From Pseudoalteromonas arctica A 37-1-2 (GTDB lineage Bacteria > Pseudomonadota > Gammaproteobacteria > Enterobacterales > Alteromonadaceae), in the NCBI RefSeq assembly GCF_000238395.3, contig NZ_CP011025.1, positions 2,542,001 through 2,606,000 on the forward strand: a stretch of DNA of 64,000 nucleotides. Reading direction: 5' to 3'. Shown one piece after another: positions 16,769 through 21,106 of this stretch. The notes below the pieces were generated by a model. It was not told where the DNA came from and searched no databases. It worked only from the letters and a program-made list of their open reading frames with translations. Position 1 is the first letter of the stretch. Each line of letters opens with the position of its first letter. Position numbers and translations under genes: made by a program.

Positions 16769-16950
16769 GATTTTTGGATTTTTGGATTTTTGGATTTTTG
16801 GATTTTTGGATTTTTGGATTTTTGGATTTTTGGATTTTTGGATTTTTGGATTTTTGGATTTTTGGATTTTTGGATTTTTGGATTTTTGGATTTTTGGATT
16901 TTTGGATTTTTGGATTTTTGGATTTTTGGATTTTTGGATTTTTGGATTTT
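16769..16950. repeat. 22.75 copies of an 8-bp tandem repeat (GATTTTTG)
   Basis: Twenty-two exact copies of GATTTTTG (16769-16944) plus six bases of the next. No interruption is visible. Because 8 is not a multiple of 3, every plus frame reads the same eight-residue repeat DFWIFGFL, which explains spurious long open frames here. The tract ends 18 bp after it would reach the -35 region of a minus-strand promoter for the DksA-like gene. Confidence 0.98.
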
Positions 16951-16989: not shown

Positions 16990-17065
16990 TGGCGTCCCCA
17001 AGGGGATTCGAACCCCTGTTACCGCCGTGAAAGGGCGGTGTCCTAGGCCTCTAGACGATGGGGAC
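16990..17065 (-). tRNA. tRNA-Glu(UUC), copy 3 of the transcript
   Basis: 76 nt, cloverleaf beginning GTCCCCATCGTCTAGAGG and ending GGGGACGCCA. Anticodon loop CTTTCAC gives UUC; the CCA end is encoded. Identical to the two copies upstream. Confidence 0.98.
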
Positions 17066-17157
17066 ACATAAATGTGTCACTAGGACAACTGAATTTTTAA
17101 ACTCGTTTCAGGCGAGCTTTCTTAATAACACTTCACTTTCCTATTAAAATAAGTAAG

Positions 17158-17214
17158 TGGCATCCCCAAGAGATTAGTACTCTTGATAACGTCGTGCATA
17201 GAGAGTGCGGTGTC
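17158..17214 (-). pseudogene. Decayed tRNA-Glu copy
   Basis: The plus-strand text TGGCATCCCCAAGAGATT then TAGTACTCTTGATAACGTCG aligns to the 3' two thirds of the neighbouring tRNA-Glu genes, with many substitutions and loss of the anticodon and acceptor 5' side. It lies between the second and third intact copies at the spacing expected of a tandem unit. Confidence 0.7.
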
Positions 17215-17246
17215 ACACTGCTTTACACAATACTTAAAATAGTAAG

Positions 17247-17322
17247 TGGCGTCCCCAAGGGGATTCGAACCCCTGTTACCGCCGTGAAAGGGCGGTGTCC
17301 TAGGCCTCTAGACGATGGGGAC
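17247..17322 (-). tRNA. tRNA-Glu(UUC), copy 2 of the transcript
   Basis: 76 nt, identical to the copy at 16990-17065; anticodon UUC, encoded CCA. Confidence 0.98.
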
Positions 17323-17466
17323 ACATAAATGTGTCACTAGGACAGTTGATAAGTTTAACTCACATCATGAGCTTTAAGGTAATTGCGTTTAATACAAGTA
17401 AAGACTCGAGCTTTAATTGTGACGCTATTTTCTCGGTAAAACCGCCTTTAACTAATAAAAGTTAAG

Positions 17467-17542
17467 TGGCGTCCCCAAGGGGATTCGAACCCCTGTTACC
17501 GCCGTGAAAGGGCGGTGTCCTAGGCCTCTAGACGATGGGGAC
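17467..17542 (-). tRNA. tRNA-Glu(UUC), copy 1 of the transcript
   Basis: 76 nt, identical to the other two; anticodon UUC, encoded CCA. It follows tRNA-Ala by 37 bp on the minus strand. Confidence 0.98.
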
Positions 17543-17579
17543 ACAGAAAACTGCTACCCTAGGACAAAACACTAATTTT

Positions 17580-17655
17580 TGGTGGAGCCATGCGGGATCG
17601 AACCGCAGACCTCTTCACTGCCAGCGAAGCGCTCTCCCAGCTGAGCTATGGCCCC
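17580..17655 (-). tRNA. tRNA-Ala(GGC)
   Basis: 76 nt, starting GGGGCCATAGCTCAGCTGGG and ending GGCTCCACCA. Anticodon loop CTGGCAG gives GGC. It is the first gene of the Ala-Glu-Glu-Glu transcript. Confidence 0.98.
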
Positions 17656-18331: not shown

Positions 18332-18752
18332 GTTATATGTGATCTATTTAGTCTTAATCCGAAGGCTATTAGTGAAGTATGAGTATTTACGATTTGGCTA
18401 GGTTGGCTTATAAAAATAAAGTAAGTACAAAAATAGAGTTTAGAATGCTGAAAATAGCATTTGTTTTGGGAAGTTTAGATTAAATTCATTTTTAAAGGAC
18501 CGCTCTATTCACTAAATAACTCGCCCTAATATTAATCCATCTTGCTCATAATCATAAAAACGACTCCAGTAAAAAAACAATAAGTATCGTGAAGCTAAAT
18601 TTAAGATTAATAAAATACGATTCCCTACTCACTTTTAGGAGCTTATTTGGTGCTTAATTGAACTGCAATATCAAATTTGATGATAAAATAGACTTCAACC
18701 ATATCCTATTGTTTATAAAACCTTCATTCAGCACATTTTTATCATTCAAGTG
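18332..18752. other. Intergenic, no gene seen
   Basis: About 420 bp of AT-rich sequence upstream of the tRNA-Val promoter. No open frame with a ribosome site or RNA structure could be supported. Confidence 0.6.
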
Positions 18753-18780
18753 TTGACACATTTTCAACTCTATCTATAAT
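18753..18780 (+). promoter_or_regulatory. Promoter of the tRNA-Val array
   Basis: Consensus TTGACA (18753-18758) and TATAAT (18775-18780) separated by 16 bp, followed by the GC-rich discriminator AGCGCCCC and the first tRNA about 40 bp on. It is the only strong promoter I see for the array, implying a transcript of at least 2 kb. Confidence 0.88.
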
Positions 18781-18822
18781 AGCGCCCCACAACAACGCAG
18801 CAATGCAATGTTGTTTAGATGT

Positions 18823-18898
18823 GGGTGATTAGCTCAGTTGGGAGAGCATCGCCCTTACAAGGCGAGGGTCACTGGTTCAAGTCCAGTATCACCCACCA
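18823..18898 (+). tRNA. tRNA-Val(UAC) 1, acceptor type GGGTGAT/ATCACCC
   Basis: 76 nt with encoded CCA. Anticodon loop CTTACAA gives UAC. Acceptor arms GGGTGAT and ATCACCC pair fully. Confidence 0.98.
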
Positions 18899-18934
18899 CT
18901 TTTTAATTAAAGTGTTCACATCTAAATTCTATAT

Positions 18935-19022
18935 GGGTCCTAAGCTCAATTAGAAAATAGAGAGCATTACCGCTACTTACAAGTAACGGCGAAGTTCACT
19001 GGTTAAAGTCCAGTACTATTTA
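18935..19022 (+). pseudogene. Degenerate tRNA-Val-like sequence A
   Basis: Begins GGGTCCTAAGCTCAATTAG, keeps TTACAAG at the anticodon and GTTCACTGG then TTAAAGTCCAGTACTAT at the T arm, but has an A-rich insertion in the D arm and cannot pair its acceptor ends. Confidence 0.8.
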
Positions 19023-19051
19023 TTTTAATAGTAGCGTTTTAATTTATATGT

Positions 19052-19127
19052 GGGTGATTAGCTCAGTTGGGAGAGCATCGCCCTTACAAGGCGAGGGTCA
19101 CTGGTTCAAGTCCAGTATCACCCACCA
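19052..19127 (+). tRNA. tRNA-Val(UAC) 2, acceptor type GGGTGAT/ATCACCC
   Basis: 76 nt, identical to copy 1; encoded CCA. Confidence 0.98.
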
Positions 19128-19176
19128 CATATAAAACCTATTATTATATAATAGTCGTGTTTTAAAATTGTAATAT

Positions 19177-19265
19177 GGGTCGTTAGCTCAGTTACAAGAA
19201 AAGAGAGCATCACCGCCTTTTATAAAAGATGGCGAAGTTCACTGGTTAAAGTCCAGTACTATCTA
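19177..19265 (+). pseudogene. Degenerate tRNA-Val-like sequence B
   Basis: GGGTCGTTAGCTCAGTTAC then an A-rich insertion, an expanded anticodon arm (CCGCCTTTTATAAAAGATGG) with no valine anticodon at the expected place, and a T arm with TTAAAG in place of TTCAAG. Confidence 0.8.
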
Positions 19266-19287
19266 TATAGGTAGTAGCATGTAATAT

Positions 19288-19363
19288 GGGTCGTTAGCTC
19301 AGTTGGGAGAGCATCGCCCTTACAAGGCGAGGGTCACTGGTTCAAGTCCAGTACGACCCACCA
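19288..19363 (+). tRNA. tRNA-Val(UAC) 3, acceptor type GGGTCGT/ACGACCC
   Basis: 76 nt; body identical to copies 1 and 2 but with compensated acceptor changes (GGGTCGT with ACGACCC). Encoded CCA, followed by the small hairpin CCATTCTTAGAATGG. Confidence 0.98.
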
Positions 19364-19399
19364 TTCTTAGAATGGTGCATATTACAAGAAAATCTAAAT

Positions 19400-19487
19400 G
19401 GGTCGTTAGCTCAGTTAGAAAAAAGAGAACATTACCGCTATTTACAAGTAACGGCGAGGTTCACTGGTTAAAGTCCAGTACTATTTA
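19400..19487 (+). pseudogene. Degenerate tRNA-Val-like sequence C
   Basis: Starts GGGTCGTTAGCTCAGTTAG, then AAAAAAGAGAACATTACCGC, TATTTACAAGTAACGGCGAG and a T arm ending CAGTACTATTTATTT. Its body is identical to copies D, E and F. Confidence 0.85.
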
Positions 19488-19516
19488 TTTCAATAGTAGC
19501 GTTTTAATTTATATGT

Positions 19517-19592
19517 GGGTGATTAGCTCAGTTGGGAGAGCATCGCCCTTACAAGGCGAGGGTCACTGGTTCAAGTCCAGTATCACCCACCA
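19517..19592 (+). tRNA. tRNA-Val(UAC) 4, acceptor type GGGTGAT/ATCACCC
   Basis: 76 nt, identical to copy 1; encoded CCA. Confidence 0.98.
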
Positions 19593-19641
19593 CATATAAA
19601 GCCTATTATTATGTTAATAGTCGCGTTTTAAAATTTAATAT

Positions 19642-19717
19642 GGGTCGTTAGCTCAGTTGGGAGAGCATCGCCCTTACAAGGCGAGGGTCACTGGTTCAAG
19701 TCCAGTACGACCCACCA
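19642..19717 (+). tRNA. tRNA-Val(UAC) 5, acceptor type GGGTCGT/ACGACCC
   Basis: 76 nt, identical to copy 3. It has no degenerate partner after it; only 32 bp separate it from copy 6. Confidence 0.98.
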
Positions 19718-19749
19718 TTCCTAGAATGGTGCATATTAAAATGTAATTT

Positions 19750-19825
19750 GGGTGATTAGCTCAGTTGGGAGAGCATCGCCCTTACAAGGCGAGGGTCACT
19801 GGTTCAAGTCCAGTACGACCCACCA
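19750..19825 (+). tRNA. tRNA-Val(UAC) 6, chimeric acceptor GGGTGAT/ACGACCC
   Basis: 76 nt with UAC anticodon. The 5' arm is of one type and the 3' arm of the other, so positions 5-68 (G-G) and 6-67 (A-C) do not pair. It marks the left end of the 222-bp amplified block. Function may be impaired. Confidence 0.9.
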
Positions 19826-19861
19826 TTCTTAGAATGGTGCATATTACAAGAAAATCTAAAT

Positions 19862-19949
19862 GGGTCGTTAGCTCAGTTAGAAAAAAGAGAACATTACCGC
19901 TATTTACAAGTAACGGCGAGGTTCACTGGTTAAAGTCCAGTACTATCTA
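19862..19949 (+). pseudogene. Degenerate tRNA-Val-like sequence D
   Basis: Identical in body to C, E and F; 3' end reads CAGTACTATCTATATAGG. No CCA end and no full acceptor stem. Confidence 0.85.
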
Positions 19950-19971
19950 TATAGGTAGTAGCATGTAATAT

Positions 19972-20047
19972 GGGTCGTTAGCTCAGTTGGGAGAGCATCG
20001 CCCTTACAAGGCGAGGGTCACTGGTTCAAGTCCAGTACGACCCACCA
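19972..20047 (+). tRNA. tRNA-Val(UAC) 7, acceptor type GGGTCGT/ACGACCC
   Basis: 76 nt, identical to copy 3; second 222-bp unit. Confidence 0.98.
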
Positions 20048-20083
20048 TTCTTAGAATGGTGCATATTACAAGAAAATCTAAAT

Positions 20084-20171
20084 GGGTCGTTAGCTCAGTT
20101 AGAAAAAAGAGAACATTACCGCTATTTACAAGTAACGGCGAGGTTCACTGGTTAAAGTCCAGTACTATCTA
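20084..20171 (+). pseudogene. Degenerate tRNA-Val-like sequence E
   Basis: Identical to D; second 222-bp unit. Confidence 0.85.
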
Positions 20172-20193
20172 TATAGGTAGTAGCATGTAATAT

Positions 20194-20269
20194 GGGTCGT
20201 TAGCTCAGTTGGGAGAGCATCGCCCTTACAAGGCGAGGGTCACTGGTTCAAGTCCAGTACGACCCACCA
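20194..20269 (+). tRNA. tRNA-Val(UAC) 8, acceptor type GGGTCGT/ACGACCC
   Basis: 76 nt, identical to copy 3; third 222-bp unit. Confidence 0.98.
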
Positions 20270-20305
20270 TTCTTAGAATGGTGCATATTACAAGAAAATC
20301 TAAAT

Positions 20306-20393
20306 GGGTCGTTAGCTCAGTTAGAAAAAAGAGAACATTACCGCTATTTACAAGTAACGGCGAGGTTCACTGGTTAAAGTCCAGTACTATCTA
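20306..20393 (+). pseudogene. Degenerate tRNA-Val-like sequence F
   Basis: Identical to D and E; third 222-bp unit. Confidence 0.85.
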
Positions 20394-20415
20394 TATAGGT
20401 AGTAGCATGTAATAT

Positions 20416-20491
20416 GGGTCGTTAGCTCAGTTGGGAGAGCATCGCCCTTACAAGGCGAGGGTCACTGGTTCAAGTCCAGTATCACCCACCA
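20416..20491 (+). tRNA. tRNA-Val(UAC) 9, chimeric acceptor GGGTCGT/ATCACCC
   Basis: 76 nt with UAC anticodon and CCA. It is the reciprocal chimera of copy 6: position 5-68 is C-C and 6-67 is a G-U wobble. It marks the right end of the amplified block. Confidence 0.92.
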
Positions 20492-20552
20492 AATTACATC
20501 AAGCGGTTAATTGATAGCAAAGAATTAAATAACAGGCATACCTATTATATGT

Positions 20553-20628
20553 GGGTGATTAGCTCAGTTGGGAGAGCATCGCCCTTACAAGGCGAGGGTC
20601 ACTGGTTCAAGTCCAGTATCACCCACCA
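20553..20628 (+). tRNA. tRNA-Val(UAC) 10, acceptor type GGGTGAT/ATCACCC
   Basis: 76 nt, identical to copy 1; last intact copy. Confidence 0.98.
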
Positions 20629-20725
20629 CATATAAACACCATCAGACAACCTCTCTAGTAATAACTCTTTCTTCGCATATTAAATACATTTAAGAACTTT
20701 ATAAAAACTCAATATATAAATTGTA

Positions 20726-20814
20726 TGTAATTAATTTAGCCGTAAGAAAAAGAGCATCGCCACCCTTTCAAATAATGGCGAGGGTCACTGGTTCAAGTCC
20801 AGTATCACCCACCA
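20726..20814 (+). pseudogene. Degenerate tRNA-Val-like sequence G
   Basis: The 3' half (GGCGAGGGTCACTGGTTCAA to ATCACCCACCA) is intact but the 5' acceptor, D arm and anticodon are ruined. The following 75 bp (ACATATAAATACCATCAGAC and on) duplicates the sequence after tRNA 10 at 20628-20700, so it arose by duplication of the end of the array. Confidence 0.85.
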
Positions 20815-21106
20815 CATATAAATACCATCAGACAACTTCCCTAGTAATAACTCTTTTCCCATATTAAATACGTTTAACTCCTCTTTTTACCTTAAATACA
20901 TTTCATATTTTTATTAAAATCTAAATTTCCATATCAAAGCACTCATCAAATATAGCGTTATCAATTTTACTTATTTAGTTTTTAATTATGTTATTCGGCT
21001 CAGTACCTTCGTAGTTAGATAAACGTATTAGGCAAAGTTAAGTACCTAATAAATACAGCTATCATTTAAATTCCCTTGTAAGGAGTTAAACTGTTGATTA
21101 TAGTCT
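20815..21106. other. Intergenic between tRNA array and TPR protein
   Basis: AT-rich. It begins with the duplicated tail of the array and contains AAGGAG at 21080-21085. No convincing rho-independent terminator for the tRNA transcript was seen. Confidence 0.5.

Follow-up and report, generated by a model that had tools for sequence, protein, structure and literature searches.

Degenerate tRNA copies that look like locally folded spacers in a tRNA-Val(UAC) array of Pseudoalteromonas arctica A 37-1-2

Spacer repeats carrying part of a tRNA 3' end occur in the tRNA transcript of the Escherichia coli tyrT operon and are known as rtT RNA (RF00391). A repetitive tRNA-Pro/tRNA-His cluster with tRNA-like pseudogenes was reportedly described in Photobacterium phosphoreum by Giroux, Beaudet and Cedergren. 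Long runs of repeated tRNA genes have been reported for Pseudoalteromonas haloplanktis and other psychrophiles (PMC3820357), and pairing of a precursor tRNA leader with the 3' RCCA is reported to inhibit a binding step of RNase P (PMC9433436). Here we analyzed a tRNA-Val(UAC) array of P. arctica A 37-1-2 in a window of 64,000 nucleotides (the whole stretch of DNA analyzed; contig NZ_CP011025.1, positions 2,542,001 to 2,606,000). In this array ten live tRNA genes stand together with seven degenerate copies, six of them between the genes (the interior copies). The interior copies descend from tRNA genes, have lost tRNA features, are conserved in part of the genus and share a covarying fold, within an array of recombinant structure. 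We propose that they are dead tRNA-Val genes retained as self-contained, locally folded spacers in the precursor RNA, a reading held tentatively, as slightly short of probable.

ARAGORN and Rfam (RF00005) agreed on the ten genes, each 76 nt by ARAGORN, on the + strand between 18823 and 20628. A + strand scan of 18650-20950 revealed a promoter-like site at 18753-18780 (12/12 consensus match) and no second one, in line with the single consensus promoter of the initial annotation. As tandem isoacceptors that follow a single promoter, the genes form a repetitive tRNA array; the promoter is a consensus match and not a mapped start. Judged from the promoter scan, the genes and copies would be carried on a single transcript. 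The features are as follows, in window positions; bit scores of the interior copies (psi) are from R1, a covariance model built from 28 interior copies including those of the window, so these scores are not independent.

18753..18780, + strand: promoter-like site TTGACA-16-TATAAT, 12/12 consensus match, then a GC-rich GCGCCCC stretch
18814..18822, + strand: leader of tRNA 1 (TTTAGATGT), 9-nt Watson-Crick match to its own trailer, best other trailer 6
18823..18898, + strand: tRNA-Val(UAC) 1, acceptor type A (ARAGORN, RF00005)
18918..18926, + strand: trailer of tRNA 1 (ACATCTAAA), complement of its own leader
18927..19038, + strand: psi1, four-hairpin degenerate copy with a slot-2-like leader, 131.3 bits
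19052..19127, + strand: tRNA-Val(UAC) 2, type A (ARAGORN, RF00005)
19169..19281, + strand: psi2, slot-3 leader, TTGTAAT pairing with D-loop GTTACAA (outer H1 of 7 bp with one G-U), 121.1 bits
19280..19287, + strand: leader of tRNA 3 (TGTAATAT)
19288..19363, + strand: tRNA-Val(UAC) 3, type B (ARAGORN, RF00005)
19379..19386, + strand: trailer of tRNA 3 (ATATTACA)
19392..19503, + strand: psi3, slot-4 leader, TCTAA pairing with D-loop TTAGA, 132.9 bits
19517..19592, + strand: tRNA-Val(UAC) 4, type A (ARAGORN, RF00005)
19642..19717, + strand: tRNA-Val(UAC) 5, type B (ARAGORN, RF00005)
19750..19825, + strand: tRNA-Val(UAC) 6, chimera (5' type A, 3' type B), acceptor 5/7, 60.6 bits with RF00005
19854..19965, + strand: psi copy in spacer 6, 127.9 bits
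19972..20047, + strand: tRNA-Val(UAC) 7, type B (ARAGORN, RF00005)
20076..20187, + strand: psi copy in spacer 7, 127.9 bits
20194..20269, + strand: tRNA-Val(UAC) 8, type B (ARAGORN, RF00005)
20298..20409, + strand: psi copy in spacer 8, 127.9 bits
20416..20491, + strand: tRNA-Val(UAC) 9, chimera (5' type B, 3' type A), acceptor 6/7 with one G-U, 64.1 bits with RF00005
20553..20628, + strand: tRNA-Val(UAC) 10, type A (ARAGORN, RF00005)
20751..20814, + strand: terminal degenerate copy, a separate kind, score 94, z 25.4

With T for tRNA and p for degenerate copy, the order of elements is T p T p T p T T T p T p T p T T p. The copies occupy spacers 1, 2, 3, 6, 7 and 8, and the seventh lies 3' of the last gene. 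The alternation noted initially therefore holds for six of the nine spacers but is not strict, as spacers 4, 5 and 9 (49, 32 and 61 nt) are empty. Spacers 6, 7 and 8, each with a psi copy, are identical to one another, and positions 19741-20491 comprise 3.4 copies of a 222-nt unit at 99% identity, with the unit number as given by the assembly; this stretch is probably a recent amplification. The live genes fall into two acceptor-stem types, A (GGGTGAT..ATCACCC) and B (GGGTCGT..ACGACCC). All ten predicted genes were recovered, but the claim that all are intact holds for eight with 7/7 acceptor pairs, whereas tRNA 6 and tRNA 9 are A/B recombinants with 5/7 and 6/7 pairs (G-U counted), scoring 60.6 and 64.1 bits with RF00005 against 71.9-72.1 bits for the others. 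Imperfect acceptor stems (mostly 5/7 or 6/7, one 2/7) also occur in several genes of two congener arrays with 11 Val genes each (L115, L132).

All seven copies are homologous to tRNA, with z values of 13.5-25.4 in Smith-Waterman alignments against 36 distinct tRNAs of the genome (30 shuffles), yet RF00005 reported none of the seven as tRNA at E<=1 while reporting all ten genes. By homology to a tRNA of the same array and loss of tRNA features, all seven can be classed as tRNA pseudogenes, as the earlier description of tRNA-like copies unable to form a tRNA had suggested. Beyond the ten genes, the Rfam search at E<=1 yielded sub-gathering matches alone, namely minus-strand ones over tRNA genes, a minus-strand one of 32 bits overlapping the terminal copy (gathering 59) and a + strand one of 18.5 bits running from tRNA 1 into psi1 (gathering 209); no known Rfam identity for the copies was found in it. 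In the six interior copies the homology covers tRNA positions 1-67, and the 3' acceptor strand is gone. Base 56 of the T-loop is A in all six; among 78 distinct interior copies of the genus, 72 have A there, four C, one G and one T. Only 2 of the 78 carry GTTGG in the D region, and 77 keep the T-stem ACTGG/CCAGT.

The fold shared by the interior copies is a chain of four hairpins. H1 is built from the leader, the 5' acceptor strand, the 5' D strand and the former D-loop; H2 from the 3' D strand, the enlarged anticodon arm and the variable region; H3 is the T-arm, and H4 is a new hairpin at the site of the former 3' acceptor strand. RNAalifold on 28 copies recovered H2, H3 and H4 and not H1, which single-sequence folding adds in most copies. 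An A-rich linker between H1 and H2 is present in the 28 aligned copies and is unpaired in the fold.

This structure is supported by two alignments, identical copies being counted once in each. A1 is a MAFFT alignment of 28 distinct copies out of 30 that was not fitted to the structure, and A2 a structure-fitted (model) alignment of 78 distinct copies out of 83 from 29 genomes. In A2, 97.3% of cells are paired, compared with 27-53% for slid partners (25-53% over A1 and A2), and two-sided change occurs in 14 of 29 pairs against 4.0 in shuffles (standard deviation 1.4; 0/500 as high). In A1, 97.0% of cells are paired and two-sided change occurs in 5 pairs against 2.0 (2/500), while further pair types are no better than shuffles (289/500). 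The copies are also more stable than shuffled sequences (mean z -2.83, range -5.06 to -1.31, n=28), and their energy lies below the mean of simulated random tRNA decay in 27/27 copies, in the 5% tail in 11. The two-sided changes and the random-decay comparison both favour constraint after the loss of tRNA function, which a plain pseudogene would lack; neither statistic is corrected for phylogeny, the copies being closely related and subject to concerted evolution.

The outer H1 stem, formed by the leader and the former D-loop, was examined apart from these pair counts because its register shifts. The test covered 75 copies (70 distinct) found by a T-arm motif that contains A56, a set without copies carrying another base there, L116 and L118 (no recognised 5' D strand) and copies whose 5' part lies beyond the extracted sequence. 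Among the 70 distinct copies, 34 pair as TCTA:TAGA, 23 as TGTA:TACA and 2 as TAGA:TCTA, 10 are untyped on one or both sides, and none has the mismatched combinations TCTA:TACA or TGTA:TAGA. Of the 60 copies in which each side could be typed, 59 match; the sixtieth, typed TGTA/CAGA, pairs as TTCTG:CAGAA. An outer H1 of at least 5 bp (G-U counted, best of 16 offsets) is possible in 69 of 75 copies. Leader/D-loop matches of at least 5 nt were found in 24 of 25 own pairs (25 distinct of 30) and in 234/538 swapped pairs, a high background owing to the A-rich loops.

Leaders of the live genes show a tendency to match their own trailers. In the Val arrays of 16 congeners, own leader and trailer match over at least 7 nt in 85/112 genes, compared with 78/664 crossed pairs and 38/560 shuffles. 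Corresponding values in 18 stretches of the P. arctica genome are 26/89 for own, 32/458 for crossed pairs and 15/445 for shuffles, and in two genomes of other genera 14/73 against 16/466 (G025) and 4/45 against 1/222 (G032). This match-length test with shorter windows was chosen after a first test by duplex energy with 45-nt trailers gave a weak result (own trailer best in 67/203 genes, the masked L075 included). In the Asp (L011) and Arg (L014) arrays of the same genome, matches of at least 7 nt were seen in 5/7 and 4/4 genes, respectively.

Comparison of leaders across congeners points to the origin of the dead copies. In G001, G012 and G009, which lack this interior copy, the gene leaders stand in a similar order. 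The leader of psi1 is identical to the second leader of G011 and similar to those of G001, G012 and G009; that of psi2 is the leader of live gene 3 in congeners (TGTAATAT), and that of psi3 the leader of gene 4 (ATCTAAAT), of which the gene 4 leader of G009 is a close variant. What follows the slot-4 leader is still a live gene in G005 and G019, and a dead copy in other species. From this order, the dead copies look like occupants of old gene slots, together with later duplicates.

Of 108 genus genomes, 27 had a match to model R1 of at least 80 bits under strict filters, and 30 had one of at least 60 bits; weaker matches, down to 52 bits, were not counted. Outside the genus, none of 21 genomes gave a match at E<=1e-6. 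When 41 genomes were searched at the DNA level, eight congeners, besides the P. arctica genome itself, had an interior copy with at least 80% identity. A 21-base T-arm pattern matched in 18 stretches; 17 of these belong to 15 Pseudoalteromonas genomes, with species including P. haloplanktis ATCC 14393, P. arctica, P. distincta and P. prydzensis. The remaining match, in a Campylobacteraceae metagenome-assembled genome (MAG), was taken as chance, no tRNA being found on its 8-kb stretch. Patterns of T and p in congeners likewise miss copies with a base other than A at position 56. Across the genus an array has between none and six interior copies, and 28 of 36 listed arrays hold seven live genes, independent of the number of dead copies. 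The suspicion that relatives might carry only random decayed copies without alternation was not borne out, as the array of L129 (MAG M30B23) alternates strictly, T p T p T p T p T p T p T, with six dead copies. An assembly artefact is unlikely as the source of the copies because they are found in 27 species-level genomes. A mobile element was also considered and rejected: all six R1 matches in the P. arctica genome (E<=1e-6) lie inside the Val array, no other search for mobility having been made.

Based on these observations we propose the following course of events. Former tRNA-Val genes would have lost tRNA function and stayed within the same precursor RNA, where the long-range acceptor pairing of the cloverleaf may have been replaced by the four local hairpins. 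The elbow contacts are mostly gone (base 56 usually A, the D-loop GG usually absent), so that a copy might not be mistaken for a tRNA. The leader of a live gene tends to complement the trailer of that gene; in a dead copy, which lacks a trailer, the leader is predicted to be captured by the D-loop of the same copy. Such capture would stop dead copies from pairing with a trailer or 3' half of a near-identical neighbour, and by being self-contained they could shield the live tRNAs as these fold and mature. In addition, an RNase E-like enzyme may cut in the unpaired A-rich linker that separates H1 from H2. The scheme would involve a common transcript, insulation and cleavage. In its fullest form the proposal is a new locus-bound class of structured RNA, dead tRNAs rewired into a four-hairpin chain whose leader is recaptured by the D-loop, serving as folding insulators between identical live tRNAs and complementing a leader/trailer "barcode" of the live genes; this we regard as possible and some way from likely.

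The effect on live tRNAs was examined with local partition-function folds with 180-nt flanks, which leave out tRNA modifications and proteins. Mean predicted acceptor pairing of the ten genes is 0.227 in the native array and 0.062 with shuffled spacers. When the D-loop complement in psi2 was replaced by 40 random 5-mers (38 distinct), predicted acceptor pairing of tRNA 3 fell from 0.368 to a mean of 0.213, with no replacement above the native value and two within 0.001 of it. The insulation idea predicts an effect at gene 3 because the leader of psi2 is that of gene 3, and this result is one favourable prediction for it.

Several results weigh against the proposal. In the same folds, one of ten shuffled-spacer sets reached 0.216, and five leader permutations gave 0.166-0.300 with no consistent drop from 0.227; permutation folding thus gives no support to the idea that leaders must match exactly. 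Breaking the outer H1 in all six psi copies lowered the ten-gene mean just to 0.205, mostly via gene 3 (0.37 to 0.20). The own leader-trailer match is the longest in only five of the ten genes of the window (2 ties, 3 worse), and the own trailer beats all others in 58/112 congener genes (26 ties) and 30/89 genes of the P. arctica genome (20 ties). As for the fold, independent events are fewer than the shuffle counts because the copies are related and evolve in concert; H3 is invariant in 77/78 copies and thus gives no covariation test, the inner H1 stem is also possible in an intact tRNA, and 6 of 75 copies have an outer H1 below 5 bp despite the best of 16 offsets. The live-tRNA state C56 is found in 4/78 copies, and exchange with live genes is likely because two of the four score above 117 bits. 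Finally, 81 of 108 genus genomes lack an 80-bit copy, and the interior copies are therefore dispensable.

Remnants of tRNA genes are not confined to this array; like the chimeras and the leader/trailer pairing, those of other arrays were not part of the initial annotation. In the P. arctica genome, which has 104 tRNA matches in 4.72 Mb, z against the tRNAs of the genome exceeds 5 in 19 of the 87 segments scored (spacers or flanks, 45 nt or longer); seven are in the Val array, and the remaining ones resemble Val-GAC, Arg, Thr, Phe, Gly, Glu, Met and Tyr tRNAs. Arrays of the two other genera hold remnants in 2/59 (G025) and 5/35 segments (G032). Structure in other remnants is uneven, which also weighs against the proposal: of 16 other remnant-bearing spacers folded whole, 9 have z <= -2 and three are near 0, and 17 remnant-free spacers have a mean z of -1.32, with four below -3. 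In the tRNA-Glu array of the window (16990-17655), a degenerate copy of z 8.5 lies in the last spacer (17066-17246, minus strand), whose fold has z -2.97, and 22.8 perfect copies of an 8-base repeat (GATTTTTG) lie a little outside that array at 16769-16950. Elsewhere in the genome (L020 / L135, C1:129895-129982) a tRNA-Tyr copy with an enlarged T-loop (GGTTCGAATCCAAATCCAGC) lies between tRNA-Thr and tRNA-Gly; it was missed by ARAGORN and scores 40.3 bits with Rfam, its exact pattern occurs in 1 of 107 genus genomes, that of P. arctica itself, and it is perhaps a recently dead gene. The Gly arrays L017 (same genome) and L112 (G032) carry partial tRNA-Gly copies 5' of their genes, the first gene included, with differing sequences.

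The terminal copy of the Val array is of a separate kind. It corresponds to tRNA positions 21-76, has an enlarged anticodon loop and retains the T-arm, the 3' acceptor strand and CCA. The 35 nt downstream of it repeat those downstream of tRNA 10 (flank identity 0.91). Terminal copies whose 3' flank tends to duplicate that of the last gene occur in 13 of 26 arrays examined (two genomes counted twice), with flank identity of 0.84 within species against 0.65 between species; in four of the 13 it is 0.54-0.69. By eye, similar 3'-flank duplications, terminator-like ones included, follow the Thr, Met and Ser arrays of the same genome. Terminator-like calls were also made inside psi copies, six in all (2 on the + strand, 4 on the minus strand) against 1.6 in shuffles; those on the + strand, at 18998-19014 and 19463-19479, consist of the psi T-arm followed by ACTATTTATT.

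Plain birth and death, in which remnants were duplicated along with live genes and homogenised by recombination, the stems being leftover tRNA stems and AT-rich flanks, is a real possibility, if less than an even one. Recombination was already invoked in the initial annotation, and the leader order, the chimeric tRNAs 6 and 9, the 222-nt repeats at 99% identity and the duplicated 3' flanks in 13/26 arrays speak for its part in shaping the locus. Decay with no further constraint would also fit the occurrence of remnants elsewhere, in further arrays of the genome and in two more genera, some of them without excess structure, the tRNA-Tyr corpse seen in a single genome, and the C56 copies, which look as if swapped with live genes. 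It accounts less well for copies whose conservation extends over part of the genus, which alternate with genes in relatives and which covary in a non-tRNA fold, and by itself appears insufficient: the outer H1 and H4 do not exist in tRNA, yet are paired in most copies with compensating changes, and every copy compared (27/27) is stabler than the mean of simulated decay. Constrained spacers are preferred over plain decay because these two stems are new and covary, not on demonstrated function, and the interior copies look more like maintained structural spacers than genetic rubble.

Two further roles, as regulatory or as processing RNAs, were raised in the initial annotation beside recombination; each of its two ideas finds some support, and neither suffices by itself. 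The copies could be released as stable small RNAs acting in trans, for example as tRNA mimics binding a tRNA enzyme or another RNA, which would suit the presence of several copies per transcript and a T-arm stem kept in 77/78 copies while other helices vary with compensation. However, that constancy may reflect exchange with live genes, the sequences of H1, H2 and H4 vary among copies, and a number of copies ranging from none to six per array would be odd for a regulator; we consider this role improbable. Alternatively, the copies might be processing signals, with hairpins placed around the unpaired A-rich stretch so that endonuclease cuts separate the tRNAs. RNase E prefers A/U-rich single strands near hairpins, and the H1-H2 linker of the 28 aligned copies is of this kind. 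Yet the psi-free spacers of 49, 32 and 61 nt need processing too, and arrays without such copies also have seven genes, leaving this explanation with a small chance of being right. The retention of dead genes as folded spacers remains our preferred reading.

Tandem identical tRNA genes pose a folding problem, as halves of different copies are able to pair, and this locus suggests a testable answer in the form of leader/trailer pairs and self-contained dead copies. The array is also a well-sampled case of the fate of tRNA genes after death, and the range of none to six dead copies per array offers a natural experiment. A literature search, mainly of open-licence papers by titles and abstract openings, returned no description of such refolded tRNA copies. 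Among known systems, rtT RNA comes closest to the terminal copy, although RF00391 has no match in the array at E<=1 in the Rfam search; unlike rtT RNA, the interior copies cover tRNA positions 1-67 and no longer have a 3' acceptor strand. The runs of P. haloplanktis resemble those of A 37-1-2, a strain of the same genus with many tRNA genes in repeated runs (104 matches), while the consulted part of that account does not mention degenerate partners, their fold or leader/trailer pairing (PMC3820357). In the precursor tRNAs of the RNase P study, the leader pairs beyond the acceptor stem as it does here, with a bearing on RNase P and ordered processing (PMC9433436). Here, by contrast, tandem genes differ in their leader/trailer pairs, and the dead copies use the D-loop in place of a trailer.

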